From Bacteroidales bacterium (GTDB lineage: Bacteria; Bacteroidota; Bacteroidia; Bacteroidales; UBA932): a stretch of DNA of 36,561 nt. The notes under the pieces were generated by a model, which had not been told where the DNA came from, searched no databases, and saw only the letters and a program-made list of their open reading frames with translations. Made by a program: the position numbers and the translations under genes. Location: positions 1 to 36,561 of the forward strand of contig JAAYDZ010000028.1 of assembly GCA_012728975.1 (NCBI GenBank), read 5' to 3'. This document shows positions 1 through 12,043 of the stretch, piece after piece (the stretch's first letter is position 1; each line of letters starts with the position of its first letter).

Positions 1-19
1 AAATCAATGTTTTTTTCAT
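1..19 (-). CDS. Start of a TPP-riboswitch-controlled gene (partial)
   Basis: Only the first six codons are inside the window, reading MKKTLI on the minus strand. The ATG lies a few bases behind a GGGAGGA Shine-Dalgarno-like sequence, which is the 3' end of a TPP riboswitch. The basic start followed by hydrophobic residues could begin a signal peptide. In Bacteroidota, TPP riboswitches usually precede thiamine biosynthesis genes or a thiamine uptake cluster with an outer-membrane receptor. A signal-peptide start would favour uptake, but this is inference from six residues. Confidence 0.6.
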
Positions 20-26
20 AAAAATC

Positions 27-97
27 CTCCCTACGCCGGTATTATCCGGATCAGGTTTAGTGGGTGTGTTCTCAGCCCCCGCAAGGGGAGCACCCCC
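27..97 (-). promoter_or_regulatory. TPP (THI-box) riboswitch
   Basis: Read on the minus strand, the region has the conserved TPP aptamer blocks in order: GGGGGTGC, CTGAGA, ACCTGATCCGGATAATACC and GGCGTAGGGA. These bind the pyrimidine and pyrophosphate halves of thiamine pyrophosphate. The 3' end of the aptamer runs directly into GGAGGA and the ATG at position 19. No intrinsic terminator lies between, so ligand binding most likely controls translation by hiding the ribosome binding site. Confidence 0.96.
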
Positions 98-141
98 GAT
101 TGTTAATAAATCTATGTCAAAGACCCCTAAAGGGAAACTTT

Positions 142-7456: not shown

Positions 7457-7571
7457 CTGTGCAAATATAGAAATAAAGATTCACTTTAAAGAGCATAACC
7501 TGAATTCAATTTAATCACGACAAATTTCATCAAGGACCTTTTCCAAAATATATTCATATATTTGCACTGCA

Positions 7572-7887
7572 GGTGAGACTTCCTATCGCTCTTTCGGGAG
7601 AGGAAAGTCCGGACAGCACAGAGCACTTCCCTGTGGAAAGCACAGACAGATGAAAGTTTGTGGAGCGCGTAACAGAAAAGAACCGCCCGCAAGGGCAAGG
7701 GTGAAAATGTGAGGTAAGAGCTCACAACCGTCGATGGTGACACCGGCGGGGTACGTACCGGAAGGCTGCAAGACCAAATATACCGGCAATCAAGGGTTGC
7801 TCGCCCGCTGCCGGGGGGTAGGTCGCGTTAGATAAATGATAGGAGCCTTTAAGATAATAGGGTACAGAATCCGGCTTATGTCTCACC
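7572..7887 (+). ncRNA. rnpB: RNase P RNA, bacterial class A
   Basis: The catalytic RNA of RNase P, which trims tRNA 5' leaders. The P1 helix is visible as GGTGAGAC at the start and GTCTCACC at the end. Between them lie the universally conserved blocks GAGGAAAGTCCGGACA, GTAACAGAAAAGAACCGCC, GTGAGGTAAGAGCTCAC, GGTACGTACCGGAAGGC, GCAAGACCAAATA, GATAAATGATAGGAGCC and ACAGAATCCGGCTTATG, all in the correct order. A TATATTTG element at 7557-7564 just upstream matches the Bacteroidota -7 promoter consensus. Length (about 316 nt) is slightly shorter than in E. coli. Boundaries are set by the P1 stem and could be off by a few bases. Confidence 0.98.
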
Positions 7888-7893
7888 TTTTTT
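7880..7893 (+). terminator. Probable RNase P RNA terminator (P1 3' strand plus T-run)
   Basis: The 3' strand of the RNase P P1 helix (GTCTCACC) is followed at once by six T residues. No separate hairpin is seen, so the end of the RNA itself may serve as terminator. The next start codon is only 15 nt beyond the T-run. Confidence 0.5.
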
Positions 7894-7908: not shown

Positions 7909-8757
7909 ATGAGATACATACTTTCACTCCTGGTGCTACTTTGCACCCTTACAACATCCTGCAGTCAGCCTCAACCGCAAGTGCGTTTTACTCCTGAAGA
8001 CAAAGCATCTTTTGAGCGACTCCTTGAGCAAATGCTGCCCCACAAGGCACTACCGATGGATCAATTAGTGATCAAGACCGCTCTTCAAAAGCTCGGTACA
8101 CCCTATGTTGCCGGTACTCTTGAAGAGGATCCCGAGATGTTAACAGTCTGTATGGAGAAGACCGACTGCATCCTGTTTGTTGAGATGTGTCTGGCATTTT
8201 CACTCAACCTAAAGGAGGAGAATCCCAGCTTCGACTCCTATTGCAACAATCTGCTAAAACTCCGCTATCGGGATGGAGTCGCAGGAGATTATTCCTCACG
8301 TATCCACTACACTTCGGAATGGATCAGGCAAGCCGCTGAAAGAGGTATTATGGAAGAAATTACATCTGAGATCGGAGGCATTGCCTGGGCACAGGAATTC
8401 TCCTTTATGAGCACACATACTGACTCCTACCGCCAACTAAGGGAAAATCCCTCTCTTATGGAGAAGATCCGCGCTGTAGAGGAATACCTCAACGGTTTCG
8501 AATACTACTACATCCCTAAGGATGAAATCGTTACGTGTGAACCTCTGATCCACGACGGAGATATCATCTGCTTCAATAGCACTGCAAAAGGGCTTGACAT
8601 CGCGCACGTTGGTTACGCCTATTGGCAGGGAAGTCAACTGACCTTTATCCACGCCTCTTCGGTTGAAATGGAGGTGGTAATCAATAAAAAGCCGCTGACA
8701 GAGTATATCAGCGGCATTAAAAGCAATAACGGCATCAGGGTAGTAAGGCTCAAATAA
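7909..8757 (+). CDS. DUF1460 (N-acetylmuramoyl-L-alanine amidase-like) lipoprotein
   Basis: A 282-residue exported protein of the DUF1460 family, which has an NlpC/P60-like papain fold and is tied to cell-wall peptide or amide hydrolysis. The lipoprotein signal ends LTTSC (Cys18). Conserved blocks are GTPYVAGTLE near 63-72, KTDCILFVE with the presumed catalytic Cys87, LRYRDG and RIHYTSEW near 118-138, and GLDIAHVGYAY with the presumed catalytic His233. HAS near 248-250 ends the core. The start codon lies only 22 nt beyond the RNase P RNA 3' end, so its own promoter must overlap rnpB or it depends on read-through. The family is frequent in Bacteroidota, but the native substrate here is unknown. 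Confidence 0.93.
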   Translation: MRYILSLLVLLCTLTTSCSQPQPQVRFTPEDKASFERLLEQMLPHKALPMDQLVIKTALQKLGTPYVAGTLEEDPEMLTVCMEKTDCILFVEMCLAFSLNLKEENPSFDSYCNNLLKLRYRDGVAGDYSSRIHYTSEWIRQAAERGIMEEITSEIGGIAWAQEFSFMSTHTDSYRQLRENPSLMEKIRAVEEYLNGFEYYYIPKDEIVTCEPLIHDGDIICFNSTAKGLDIAHVGYAYWQGSQLTFIHASSVEMEVVINKKPLTEYISGIKSNNGIRVVRLK

Positions 8758-8780: not shown

Positions 8781-10229
8781 TTACAGACTGTCACCGAAAT
8801 CCTTTCTGAACTTCTCTACAAGTCTTGAAGGCCAGTCGGTGAGAGGCTCCAATTCTCCCATAAAGAATCTCAGTACAGGGGGCTCATAAGTAAACCTCAA
8901 CCCACCGATAAGATGCCTGTTCTCATAGAGCCAGGTAAGGCGATCGAGTGCATACATGGTTTGTGAAAGAGTAAATACCCTACGGGGAAATGCAAGGCGC
9001 AGCAACTCGACATCTGCAGGAATCTCGTTACCCTTCTCATCTCTGACGCTTGAAACAGTACCGCGTTCCATACCCCTTACACCTGAAACTAGGAAAAATG
9101 CCGCTGCTAGTGCTCCTGCAGGATATTGATGCTGGGGGATATGTTCGCAGAATTTACCCGCATTTACGTGCGCTCCAAGTACACCTGCAGGAGTTACCAT
9201 CGGAATTCCGGCCTTGACTGCATTGTTCACGAAGTATTTAATAAAATTGACACTCTGGCTGATCATCGTCTCATCAATGGTCTCATAGATTCCCACGGCC
9301 ATCGCCTCAATCTCTCTGATTGACATTCCTCCGTAAGTGAGAAATCCCTCGAAAAGGGGAATCAGAGGTTCCATTGTCATATAAAGTTCCCTTACATTGG
9401 TGCAGATGCCGCCTCCGCGTGATGAGGTAAGTTTTCTTGCAGAGAAATAGACGAGATCTGAAAGTCCTGTCATCATCTTTACAATATCCGCCATCGTGTT
9501 TTCTTTCCATTTCTCTTCACGCTGCTTAACCAGGTATGCGTTTTCGCCTAGGAGACTGGCGTCAAGTACAAGCATTATGTTGTAGTGATCTGCCACCTTG
9601 CGCACATCCATCATATTTCTAATGGAAAAGGGCTGTCCGCCGATCAGGTTGGTCGAAGCCTCCATACGGATGAACGCGATATTCTCGGCTCCGTGCTCCT
9701 CAATTGCAGCCACCAGTTTCTCTATATCGATGTTGCCCTTGAAGGGATTGGAGGATTCAAGTTCGAGTGCTTCATCGTGAAGAAGTTCGATTACCCGACC
9801 GCCCACTTCCATTATATGTGCAAGTGTAGTGGTGAAATGGTAGTTGGTAAGCACTATCTGACCGGGTTTAATGAATGCCTTAGCTATGATATTCTCGCAA
9901 GCACGCCCCTGGTGAGCCGGGAGGAGATATTTCTTGCCAAGAACTTCCTTTACACCCTTTTGCAGGCGCGCAAATGACTCTGAACCCGCATAGGCGTCAT
10001 CCGCCCTCATCATAGCTGCCAGCTGGTTGTCGCTCATAGCATTGGTACCACTGTCAGTGAGCATATCAAGAAAAACATCCTTTGTGGTCAGTTTAAAAGT
10101 ATTGTAGCCCGCCTCTTTAATAGCATCACGACGGCGCTCTATGGGCACCAGATGGAGTTTTTGTACAATTCTTACTTTGTGGAGTTCCAGAGGAATCTCC
10201 TCGCCTGAGAAAAATTTAATGTTTGCCAT
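8781..10229 (-). CDS. tnaA/tpl: Tryptophanase/tyrosine phenol-lyase family beta-eliminating lyase, TPL-like
   Basis: A 482-residue PLP enzyme. I start at ATG 10229 (MANIKFFSGEEIP); the frame extends upstream only through the leader. The family splits Trp to indole, or Tyr to phenol, plus pyruvate and ammonia. From remembered family sequences, Tyr80, Arg109, Phe132, Asn194, Asp223 and the PLP lysine Lys266 match catalytic positions. Three residues that separate TPL from tryptophanase are TPL-like: Thr133 in HFTTT, Arg389 in GMERG and Phe in VLRFF near 453-456, where E. coli TnaA has Asp, Ile and His. Oddities: the PLP-contacting Arg is Leu226, the Lys before Lys266 is Arg265, and the usual GGHA block reads GVLGAH. 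Automatic pipelines would call it tryptophanase. An attenuator with six Tyr codons lies upstream, supporting a tyrosine-linked role. Family certain; substrate likely but unproven. Confidence 0.93.
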   Translation of the reverse strand: MANIKFFSGEEIPLELHKVRIVQKLHLVPIERRRDAIKEAGYNTFKLTTKDVFLDMLTDSGTNAMSDNQLAAMMRADDAYAGSESFARLQKGVKEVLGKKYLLPAHQGRACENIIAKAFIKPGQIVLTNYHFTTTLAHIMEVGGRVIELLHDEALELESSNPFKGNIDIEKLVAAIEEHGAENIAFIRMEASTNLIGGQPFSIRNMMDVRKVADHYNIMLVLDASLLGENAYLVKQREEKWKENTMADIVKMMTGLSDLVYFSARKLTSSRGGGICTNVRELYMTMEPLIPLFEGFLTYGGMSIREIEAMAVGIYETIDETMISQSVNFIKYFVNNAVKAGIPMVTPAGVLGAHVNAGKFCEHIPQHQYPAGALAAAFFLVSGVRGMERGTVSSVRDEKGNEIPADVELLRLAFPRRVFTLSQTMYALDRLTWLYENRHLIGGLRFTYEPPVLRFFMGELEPLTDWPSRLVEKFRKDFGDSL

Positions 10230-10273
10230 AATTGTGTGTTTTTTATGTTTGTTATTGTCTTTTGATTTTTTCC

Positions 10274-10302
10274 AAAAAAAAACCCGCTCCAAAAGGACCG
10301 GG
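10274..10302 (-). terminator. Attenuator terminator in the lyase leader
   Basis: On the minus strand CCCGGTCC, a TTTT loop and GGAGCGGG form an 8-bp stem with one G-G mismatch, followed by nine T residues. It lies between the leader peptide gene and the lyase start, about 44 nt upstream of the ATG. As written it would stop transcription before the structural gene unless disrupted by the antiterminator. Confidence 0.88.
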
Positions 10303-10334
10303 ACATGCAACAGAAATTCGAATACAAAAGGGTA

Positions 10335-10400
10335 CTATCCCCGGTCGGTGGAACGGCGGTAATAGTAGTAATAATAGTTATTTGTAAAGATTCTGTTCAT
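10335..10400 (-). CDS. Leader peptide with six consecutive tyrosines
   Basis: A 21-residue reading frame on the minus strand: MNRIFTNN, then six Tyr codons in a row (10359-10376), then RRSTDRG and TAG. There is no Trp codon in it. Six tandem codons of one rare amino acid, followed by an antiterminator arm and an intrinsic terminator, is the classical layout of a ribosome-mediated attenuator such as those of trp, his and phe operons. The frame is preceded by no clear Shine-Dalgarno, as is common in Bacteroidota. The peptide itself probably has no function outside sensing. It was found by reading the leader directly; it is too short for usual gene finders. Confidence 0.85.
   Translation of the reverse strand: MNRIFTNNYYYYYYRRSTDRG
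10339..10346 (-). promoter_or_regulatory. Antiterminator arm of the Tyr attenuator
   Basis: GACCGGGG, covering the last codons of the leader peptide, can pair with TCCCGGTC, the left arm of the downstream terminator: seven Watson-Crick pairs plus one G-U. It lies 12 nt past the last Tyr codon. A ribosome stalled early in the Tyr run would leave it free to pair, whereas one that reaches the stop codon would cover it and let the terminator fold. Confidence 0.8.
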
Positions 10401-10432
10401 CTCAAACGTGCACTCTTCTGCAGTGTTGCTGG

Positions 10433-10440
10433 CAAAGGTA
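10433..10440 (-). promoter_or_regulatory. -7 promoter element for the leader/lyase transcript
   Basis: TACCTTTG on the minus strand matches the Bacteroidota TAnnTTTG consensus and lies about 33 nt upstream of the leader peptide ATG. A matching -33 TTTG at 19-21 nt spacing is not evident, so the start site is approximate. Confidence 0.55.
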
Positions 10441-10514
10441 AGTAAAATAACGTGAAGTTGTTCACCTAAAAGACTATTTCTTTAAAAAATTTGTATTTTT
10501 GCAGCCACAATAAA

Positions 10515-10590
10515 GCCTTTTTAGCTCAGTTGGTAGAGCGGCTCATTCGTAATGAGCAGGTCGCGGGTTCGAGTCCCGTGAAAGGCTCCA
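10515..10590 (+). tRNA. tRNA-Thr (CGT)
   Basis: Cloverleaf with acceptor GCCTTTT pairing GAAAGGC, D-arm TAGCTCAGTTGGTAGAGC and anticodon arm GCTCA/TGAGC. The loop is TTCGTAA (anticodon CGT), and the T-arm is CGGGTTCGAGTCCCG. CCA is encoded at 10588-10590. A -7-like TATTTTTG at 10494-10501 lies just upstream. The transporter ATG follows 24 nt after the CCA. Confidence 0.96.
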
Positions 10591-10613
10591 AGGACTTATC
10601 TCTAAGATTCATT

Positions 10614-11900
10614 ATGAGAAGCAAATTTCAAAGAAACTTTTGGGTAGTTATTGTGATGGAGTTCTTCGAAAGAGGTGCTTATTACGGTGTATTATCGGTT
10701 TTATCGGTCTATCTGGTTGCAGGTGCTATGGATGGCGGCCTCGGTTTTTCGAGAATGCAGGCAGGTACCATTTTAGGTACTATCCAACCTCTGCTTTACT
10801 TTCTTCCGATAATTGCCGGAGGAATTGCTGACCGCTACGGCTACCGAAAAATCCTATTTTTCGCCTTTACGTGTATGATAGTGGGTTATGCGCTGACAGG
10901 TGTATTTACTAATTATGGTCTTGTATTTGCCTCACTTATCATTATGGCGATAGGTGCGGGCTTTTTTAAGCCGGTTATCAGCGGCACAATTGCCAAGTCA
11001 ACGGATGAGACAAACTCTACCCTTGGTTTCGGTATATTCTACTGGTCTATCAATCTGGGTGCCTTCCTGTTTCCATTGTTCCTGGTTCCCAACCTCAAAG
11101 CGATGGGCTATGAATACATTTTCTACATGGCTGCGGTTGTGGGATTGATACTTCTGCTTATCAATACCTTTTTCTATAAAGAACCCATTTCTCTACGAGA
11201 CCCTGATACTCCGCAAAAGAGCGTGGGCGAAACGCTTCTTGGGATCCTCACAGTACTCAAGGACTTCAAGTTTATAATCTTTATTCTGCTCTATTCGGGA
11301 TTCTGGATCCTCTATTTCCAGATGTACGGTACTGTATTGTGGTATCTCAGGGATCATATGGATATGACTCCGGTTAATAATGCGGTGAACTCTTTTCTGG
11401 GACTTTTTATTGATAATCCCTCGTGGGTATTTGATACGGAGCATGTGACTGTAGTCAATGCAGGTGTCATCATCTGTCTTCAGCTCTTCGTTTCGAAGAT
11501 TGTAGCCAGGACCCGTCCCCTTCCTACTATGATTACCGGTCTGGCGCTGGGTACGCTGGGTATGCTTATTTTGAGTATCTCTTCAAAACCCTGGGTATTC
11601 ATTATCGGAATTATGGTCTTTACTATCGGTGAAATGACCACCCACCCCAAGTTCCTCTCCTACATAGGTATGATTTCCCCTCCCGACAAGAAAGCTCTAT
11701 ATATGGGTTATTCCTTCCTCTATGGAGTAATAGGCAGCTCCATCGGTTCTTTCCTCGGCTCTGCACTCTATGTAAAATTCGTGGATGAAATGGGCCGTCC
11801 CGGCCAATTATGGGCGCTTCTCTCCATCATCGGAGTTGTCAGTATCATCGGTCTGCTGATTTACAACAAAGTTGTAGTCAAGTCCAAAGCAACGGCATAA
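10614..11900 (+). CDS. POT/PTR family proton-coupled peptide transporter
   Basis: A 428-residue major facilitator with about 12 hydrophobic segments. I start at ATG 10614 (MRSKFQRNFW); the longer frame upstream only reads through the tRNA gene. The proton-coupling motif ExxER is EFFER at residues 16-20, followed by GAYYG. The loop 2-3 signature is GGIADRYGYRK near residues 81-91, and FYWSINLGAF matches the PTR2 FYxxINxGS block. The family takes up di- and tripeptides with protons and occasionally other substrates. It lies directly behind tRNA-Thr. A hairpin near 11924-11957 lies after its stop, but that hairpin has a T-run only on the other strand. Confidence 0.94.
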   Translation: MRSKFQRNFWVVIVMEFFERGAYYGVLSVLSVYLVAGAMDGGLGFSRMQAGTILGTIQPLLYFLPIIAGGIADRYGYRKILFFAFTCMIVGYALTGVFTNYGLVFASLIIMAIGAGFFKPVISGTIAKSTDETNSTLGFGIFYWSINLGAFLFPLFLVPNLKAMGYEYIFYMAAVVGLILLLINTFFYKEPISLRDPDTPQKSVGETLLGILTVLKDFKFIIFILLYSGFWILYFQMYGTVLWYLRDHMDMTPVNNAVNSFLGLFIDNPSWVFDTEHVTVVNAGVIICLQLFVSKIVARTRPLPTMITGLALGTLGMLILSISSKPWVFIIGIMVFTIGEMTTHPKFLSYIGMISPPDKKALYMGYSFLYGVIGSSIGSFLGSALYVKFVDEMGRPGQLWALLSIIGVVSIIGLLIYNKVVVKSKATA

Positions 11901-11923
11901 GAAGCAACAATAATCAAAAAAAC

Positions 11924-11957
11924 AATCCCCTCAAAATCAAACGATTGAGAGGGGATT
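11924..11957. terminator. Terminator hairpin between the POT gene and tRNA-Leu
   Basis: AATCCCCTC and GAGGGGATT form a perfect 9-bp stem, with a smaller AATC/GATT stem inside the loop. On the minus strand it is followed by GTTTTTTTG, so it most clearly ends the tRNA-Leu transcript. On the plus strand the tail is only TTTAT, so use by the transporter gene is weaker. Confidence 0.8.
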
Positions 11958-11961
11958 TATG

Positions 11962-12043
11962 TGCGGGCGAAGGGACTCGAACCCCCACGCCTTTCGGCAC
12001 TAGATCCTAAGTCTAGCTTGGCTACCAGTTACAACACGCCCGC
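11962..12043 (-). tRNA. tRNA-Leu (TAG)
   Basis: On the minus strand, acceptor GCGGGCG pairs with CGCCCGC and the discriminator is A. The anticodon arm CTAGA/TCTAG encloses loop CTTAGGA (anticodon TAG). A long variable arm, GCCGAAAGGC, marks a class II tRNA. The T-arm is GGGGGTTCGAGTCCC. No CCA is encoded. Confidence 0.95.

Follow-up and report, generated by a model that had tools for sequence, protein, structure and literature searches.

Leader region of the lyase gene

The window, that is, the whole stretch of 36,561 nucleotides (nts) analysed here, carries on its minus strand a gene for a beta-eliminating lyase of 482 amino acids (8784..10229, ATG start codon at 10229). The product was assigned to the tyrosine phenol-lyase (TPL)/tryptophanase family from Pfam, NCBIfam and PDB matches and from a predicted model used in a fold search, and it belongs to a clade of its own. 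A terminator-like hairpin found by pattern scan 3′ of the gene (8691..8715, minus strand) suggests that the lyase mRNA is a single-gene transcript. Upstream of the leader and the lyase, the genes for a tRNA-Thr and for a transporter of the major-facilitator type are divergently oriented. Elsewhere in the window, there are a TPP riboswitch at 10-107 (minus strand) and an RNase P RNA at 7570-7893 (plus strand).

The leader region contains each of the elements listed in the original prediction, and their coordinates were confirmed on the minus strand. A TAnnTTTG element (TACCTTTG, 10433..10440), which we take to be the Bacteroidales promoter consensus, is probably the -7 box. Downstream of it lies a leader peptide ORF of 21 codons followed by TAG (MNRIFTNNYYYYYYRRSTDRG, 10335..10400), which has homologous or analogous Tyr leaders before the lyase in relatives and includes, as the sensor, six consecutive Tyr codons (TAT TAT TAC TAC TAT TAC, 10359..10376). 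The 8-nt antiterminator arm (region 2, GACCGGGG, 10339..10346) starts 12 nts past the last Tyr codon and is located directly before the stop codon. In the duplex calculation, its pairing partner is the terminator's left side (region 3, TCCCGGTC, 10296..10303), and by eye the duplex has seven Watson-Crick pairs and one G-U pair. The intrinsic terminator (10274..10302) consists of a stem-loop at 10302-10283 (hairpin energy, -12.6 kcal/mol) and nine T residues at 10282-10274; the hairpin, which has a mismatch in its stem, was missed by a simple terminator scan. In addition, the Tyr codons can pair with the stretch of arm and stop codon (10367-10362 with 10338-10333), giving a candidate for a 1:2 hairpin. 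An Rfam search of positions 9000-12000 of the window with E-values up to 1 returned a tRNA only, with no match to a T-box or any other leader, and a search of 11 relative loci at the gathering level returned 5S rRNA only.

Occurrence of Tyr leaders in the family

Runs of Tyr codons are common per se. Five TAY codons were found in 286 of the 393 genomes of the order, a backwards control pattern was about as frequent in the same genomes, and the window's genome has one more Tyr-codon run, which is pure TAT. The frequency of TAY repeats, along with the ordinary folding energy of the whole leader (z = -1.17, no better than shuffles), would be expected if the locus had a plain terminator or an accidental Tyr repeat and no regulation. 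The leader was compared among orthologues, as the original prediction had proposed. Named contigs (80 loci of the 207 relatives found) and 299 genomes of the family, 118 of which gave a lyase match at 1e-100, served as sources of lyase orthologues, and extra upstream regions were taken for 60 places. The Tyr-leader test, which asks for a short ATG-started frame with at least three Tyr within eight residues upstream of the lyase, was passed by 38 of the 147 distinct regions against 4.0 in shuffles, although four of the 38 (L040, L046, L155 and L194) resemble chance matches by eye. This count was made after dropping the paralogue L002 and regions shorter than 250 nts, and L105, which is without an ATG, fails the test. 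The Phe version of the test applied to the same 147 regions gave 15 against 17.1 shuffled, showing no enrichment. Because of the excess of passing regions and the absence of enrichment for Phe, the Tyr leader is not explained by chance.

Seven genus codes of the family (g1, g3, g5, g11, g12, g17 and g21) have a conserved Tyr-run frame ahead of the lyase. The six Tyr codons are kept in all seven window-type leaders with a single synonymous difference, and the leaders of other relatives include MIRFQSTYYYYCYCNSTLRIA (L095), MKAMNSYCYYYCYCLQPIRSPKR (L111), MKSTNYNINSLYYYYRRLPRVGYGIGLC (L170), MIQSIVINSYYCYYYQFDDRGFCISVK (L173), MIKTTINAAYMYYYYRSSASVGIGIG (L174) and MKQIANIRYYYRQS (L009). The g12 leader, RYYYRQS, has a shorter run than that of the window and, like those of G145 and two g21 genomes, was found by the wider of the leader scans. 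At three loci (L162, L164 and L165), a tandem pair of Tyr leaders with two terminators precedes one lyase gene, about 400 nts upstream. A core of YYY is present in most Tyr leaders; the flanking residues vary between leaders, and Cys, Ser or Met interrupts the core. No Tyr leader was found upstream of the lyase in the clades of Alistipes, Paludibacter and the Dysgonomonas-like bacteria, nor in G046, G034 and G052, and the presence of the leader on a tree of 48 lyases needs five changes. The lyase genes of Alistipes/Rikenellaceae (L010, L012, L014, L015, L016 and L022) have a common upstream hairpin, the loop of which is TATGC-and-A-rich, and those of the Paludibacter/Porphyromonas type (L055, L059, L076 and L079), also without a Tyr leader, share a terminator-like hairpin, GTGCTT..AGGCAC.

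Tyr-codon runs were also scanned irrespective of the lyase. In the 393 genomes of the order, the leader-terminator-gene layout was seen in none of the 30 loci listed for five TAY codons, as judged by eye. Six TAY codons gave a match in 51 of the 299 family genomes, and inspection by eye of 30 loci yielded five lyase leaders (L118, L119, L121, L123 and L125) and two new leaders (L117 and L141), each a one-off recruitment of a Tyr leader to another gene. The former of the two new ones (L117:1476-1623, MKQMINNSYYYYYYHTFMRGR), found in a genome that shares its genus code with the window, consists of a Tyr leader and a terminator before a sodium:solute symporter gene, the product of which is a candidate tyrosine transporter. 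The latter (L141, minus strand, approximately 1540-1390, MYNLNNSYYYYYYRTPNGVS) is a Tyr leader with a terminator before a phenylacetate-CoA-ligase-like (PaaK-like) gene. A general link between PaaK and Tyr leaders was rejected, as such a leader was seen at only one of 30 PaaK loci, and a PaaK match at 1e-120 is absent from the window's genome.

Genus g21 has a longer structured RNA after the leader (CYYYSYCRS or a variant of it) and before the lyase (L011:1832-1966, with equivalents in L017, L019, L023, L026, L028, L049, L100, L109, L110, L145 and L153). One element is a hairpin that includes the stop codon and, by eye, begins 10 nts past the last codon of the YYY core; the others are a multihelix element resembling a terminator and a loop-loop match of 6 nts. 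Eleven cells carry changes in both partners of a pair, against 2.9 in shuffles. The loop-loop match is kept in 12 of 12, and being invariant it is outside the reach of the covariation test; a loop-loop interaction is possible. A covariance model of this RNA gave 13 matches in 12 of the 299 family genomes, all of them in g21 and directly upstream of the lyase, and no Rfam match was found at the gathering level in the loci scanned.

Pairing and spacing of the antiterminator arm

To evaluate the pairing, the best duplex that the terminator's left side can form with the stretch following the sensor codons was determined, using 400 shuffles per leader. The set consisted of 19 leaders, approximately one per lineage with near-identical ones excluded, five of which precede biosynthetic genes and two other genes. 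For the window, the arm/terminator duplex was matched by 3 of 300 shuffles, and p was 0.020 with 400 shuffles. The combined p value of the 19 leaders was 2.7e-11, which is optimistic because some of the leaders are related. Duplex strength alone, when compared with shuffles, was not significant in L095, L111, L162a, L170, L141 and L264. As for the spacing, 12 of the 19 leaders have an arm that starts +10 to +15 nts behind the final sensor codon, compared with 2.6 expected, and none of 200,000 simulations gave as many as 12. The +10 to +15 range was picked after a first leader set, and among the eight leaders outside that set it holds in five. The arms of the orthologues, to which the original prediction had pointed as a check, differ in their letters and still pair, mostly 10-15 nts past the sensor; the sequences of arm and terminator are unrelated between lineages, while pairing and spacing are kept. 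When a ribosome is stalled with the last Tyr codon in the A-site, its footprint would leave an arm at +10 to +15 just free. The proposal that the geometry fits control by ribosome stalling is supported by this pairing and spacing across lineages.

An intrinsic terminator lies between the leader ORF and the gene in 19 of 19 leaders; terminator-less ones would have been skipped, and none was. In 18 of 19 folds, L141 being the exception, the Tyr codons pair with the following stretch, as seen by eye without a shuffle control. Of 21 leaders, 15 have a TAnnTTTG element no more than 60 nts upstream of their start, against 0.9 expected from shuffles (L105 was missed by the script), and the second leader of the tandem pairs is without it, as expected for one transcript. 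With conservation, enrichment, spacing and pairing extending over seven genus codes, an accident is hard to maintain, and we consider a locus without regulation highly improbable. Translation of the Tyr codons very probably controls the terminator.

Leaders on biosynthetic genes and the predicted switch

Similar leaders with terminators were found before genes of aromatic amino acid biosynthesis in relatives. Phe/Tyr leaders precede pheA (MPLQRFYGFFYHYQRTHGGVERVRIG in G008, MLLQRFYRFYFYRHARSGVERACID in G028, MSLQRFYFGFYLYQHAKRGCTNSIV in G024 and MKQVRFSSYFHYYFYFSNRVKVGVSM in G258), and in G040 a leader with WFYYFYFYFFF and a terminator precedes a DAHP-synthase gene. Altogether, 8 of the 28 loci scanned, in five family genomes keeping the pathway, have a Phe/Tyr leader on a biosynthetic gene. 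Loci with such leaders are L263, L264, L265, L274 and L287, and the arm is at +12 to +14 in four of the five leaders named above by genome. Attenuators of the Phe/Tyr kind on amino acid biosynthesis genes are ON at starvation by established logic. Judged from its sequence, the lyase leader is the same device as the Phe/Tyr leaders of pheA and the DAHP-synthase gene, with Tyr only.

From these features, the following course of events can be proposed. Transcription of the leader and the lyase would start near 10430. A ribosome translating without delay would reach the leader stop codon and cover region 2 (10346-10339), and with region 2 covered, the terminator at 10302-10274 would halt RNA polymerase short of the lyase. 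With little charged Tyr-tRNA available, the ribosome would stall on the Tyr run and leave region 2 free just ahead of it, and the free region 2 would pair with the left side of the terminator so that the lyase is transcribed. Because of the enrichment of Tyr leaders, the kept pairing and spacing, and the same design on the pheA and DAHP-synthase genes, we take the leader to be a classical ribosome-mediated attenuator of the trp/his type, and its ON state very probably goes with a shortage of charged Tyr-tRNA.

The sense of this switch is puzzling, as the original prediction had pointed out, since TPL and tryptophanase figure in textbooks as enzymes of breakdown and are usually catabolic. A switch suited to catabolism would result if the poly-Tyr nascent chain stalled the ribosome at high free tyrosine, in the manner of TnaC or SpeFL, exposing region 2 and turning tyrosine breakdown on. 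The read-out of a stall in the Tyr run, or immediately past it, would be the same as that of a shortage of Tyr-tRNA, and the YYY core is kept in most leaders. To our knowledge, however, the known arrest peptides responding to a free ligand keep specific residues at fixed distances, whereas here the flanks and even the Tyr run vary between lineages. Codon reading fits better than a fixed stall peptide because of these variable flanks and the Cys, Ser or Met interrupting the core. Moreover, stalling at the stop codon would place the ribosome over region 2 and promote termination, and the same architecture is found on biosynthetic genes. Induction by free tyrosine is thus quite improbable in our estimation, and the attenuator responding to Tyr-tRNA shortage is retained in the following.

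Properties of the lyase

The naming of the product after the TPL/tryptophanase family was correct at the family level, as shown by the matches to Pfam PF01212 and NCBIfam PRK13238 (572.8 bits, over the cut-off), but the protein stays below the curated cut-offs of both enzymes. Its score was 441.2 bits against the TPL family TIGR02618 (cut-off, 720.7), and for tryptophanase it was 358.7 against 825.8 (TIGR02617) and 366.6 against 750 (NF053783). Among the PDB sequence matches, TPL was the best with 379 bits, compared with 317 bits for tryptophanase, and the 15 best fold matches of the predicted model (pLDDT 77) were TPL, with 40-41% identity for most. The window's genome has another lyase, which is a tryptophanase (NF053783, 880.2 against 750), and therefore tryptophan breakdown is already covered.

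The residue positions of TPL were mapped by hand from the sequence alignment of the lyase with the PDB entries. Tyr71, Arg100, Thr124, Asn185, Asp214, Lys257, Arg381, Arg404, Phe36, Phe448 and Phe449 are kept in 107 to 112 of the 112 lyases. Thr124 and Arg381, which we take to be the tyrosine-specificity residues of TPL (the roles of the other checked residues are presumed likewise), are each kept in 111. Among the changed active-site positions, R217L and K256R are found in all 112 lyases, and R127 is mostly replaced by L or M. With these changes, activity of the lyase on Tyr is putative.

The two invariant changes and the scores below both the TPL and TnaA cut-offs would agree with an attenuator that is ON at starvation and a lyase that acts on some other beta-substituted amino acid or aromatic compound, Tyr serving as a proxy for a general shortage of aromatic or other amino acids. 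The source of phenol, being putative, also leaves room for such a lyase: 22 of 28 genomes carry a UbiD-type gene, which is not diagnostic of a chorismate-to-phenol route. Nevertheless, the two specificity residues are kept, TPL is preferred over tryptophanase among the PDB matches, and the sensor is Tyr only before the lyase but Phe/Tyr before pheA. We consider another substrate unlikely.

Tyrosine pathway in leader-bearing genomes

Chorismate synthase is encoded in the window's genome, which is 90.55% complete, but searches of it for the two prephenate enzymes, dehydrogenase and dehydratase, and for the biopterin-dependent Phe hydroxylase gave no match. We compared 61 genomes, including incomplete MAGs, 54 of which have chorismate synthase. 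Prephenate dehydrogenase was present in 2 of the 34 genomes with a leader, 11 of the 20 having the lyase without a leader and 4 of the 7 without the lyase at 1e-100; the corresponding numbers for the dehydratase were 4, 10 and 3. The difference between genomes with and without a leader was significant by Fisher's test (p = 8.9e-5 for the dehydrogenase and 0.0034 for the dehydratase), for genomes that are related to each other. On the tree, the link between leader and pathway loss was not significant; of 4 independent pairs, an average of 1.4 agree, 0.0 disagree and 2.6 show no difference. At least the dehydratase is kept in some leader-bearing genomes, namely G040 and three of g12. Two of these three g12 genomes have the dehydratase without a dehydrogenase match, probably due to a divergent TyrA below the threshold. 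Conversely, the lyase is leaderless in the TyrA-less genomes G013, G020, G005, G046, G084, G034, G052 and G080. The arylacetate route was also considered as a source of Tyr and rejected: IOR_alpha was above the cut-off in none of 28 genomes, and although 12 of the 28 gave a match at 1e-150 or better, the best of the window's genome was only 4.4e-22.

For the puzzle of the switch, the original prediction offered two solutions, synthesis of tyrosine by the lyase and stalling by free tyrosine; the former is favoured and the latter disfavoured, because relatives have Phe/Tyr attenuators on biosynthetic genes and the Tyr pathway is missing in the window's genome. A switch that is ON at starvation suggests that the enzyme may run backwards, as a source of tyrosine. 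The lyase would then form tyrosine from phenol, pyruvate and ammonia by reversing the TPL reaction, and would replace or back up the prephenate route. We hold this direction to be moderately likely. The same degree of confidence, short of that for the attenuator itself, applies to the whole reading, in which a Tyr-codon attenuator that is ON at starvation controls a lyase supplying tyrosine in reverse. A more specific version is tentative and may or may not apply: in Bacteroidales without prephenate dehydrogenase, the TPL-like lyase of this clade would make tyrosine from phenol, metered by Tyr-tRNA charging through a Tyr attenuator that stands where relatives have Phe/Tyr attenuators on pheA/tyrA genes. 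The phenol could possibly be derived from the cell's own chorismate via 4-hydroxybenzoate, which is speculative. In the literature, TPL of the gut is discussed as a source of phenol (PMC6478834).

If correct, a tyrosine attenuator of this sense on such a lyase reverses the expected direction of the enzyme, and the reading predicts uptake of phenol for tyrosine synthesis in uncultivated Bacteroidales without the Tyr pathway. The Tyr leaders would constitute a family-wide Tyr sensor that is visible in sequence.

Comparison with known systems

Clues for leader-peptide attenuation upstream of amino acid biosynthesis operons have been described in Flavobacterium psychrophilum (PMC9723704), and for B. 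thetaiotaomicron short ORFs resembling leader peptides are mentioned (PMC7366714); the passages concerned name neither Tyr codons nor the lyase. In titles and abstracts of the open-licence PMC literature, we found no description of a Tyr-codon attenuator on a TPL-like gene.

The lyase leader resembles the trp, his, pheA and ilv attenuators in having a short ORF rich in the codons of one amino acid, the end of which can pair alternatively with the left side of an intrinsic terminator, and possibly a 1:2 hairpin. It differs from them in that the sensor is Tyr and the target is a lyase of a usually catabolic family, and genus g21 has a longer structured RNA in place of the simple form. TnaC of the tna operons is likewise a leader peptide before a gene of the same enzyme superfamily. 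It is the Trp-induced leader of tryptophanase, acting by Rho-dependent control, and its arrest residues Trp, Asp and Pro are at fixed places. In contrast, the leader of the window has no Trp, its flanks are not conserved between lineages, no fixed peptide is shared among them, and it has an intrinsic terminator. The enterobacterial tpl gene encodes an enzyme of the same family (40-41% identity in structure alignments) and is activated by the transcription factor TyrR, whereas the control here would be exerted by translation of the leader. Thus the mechanism is of a known kind, and the sensor, the target and the metabolic sense are apparently new within the open-licence literature searched.
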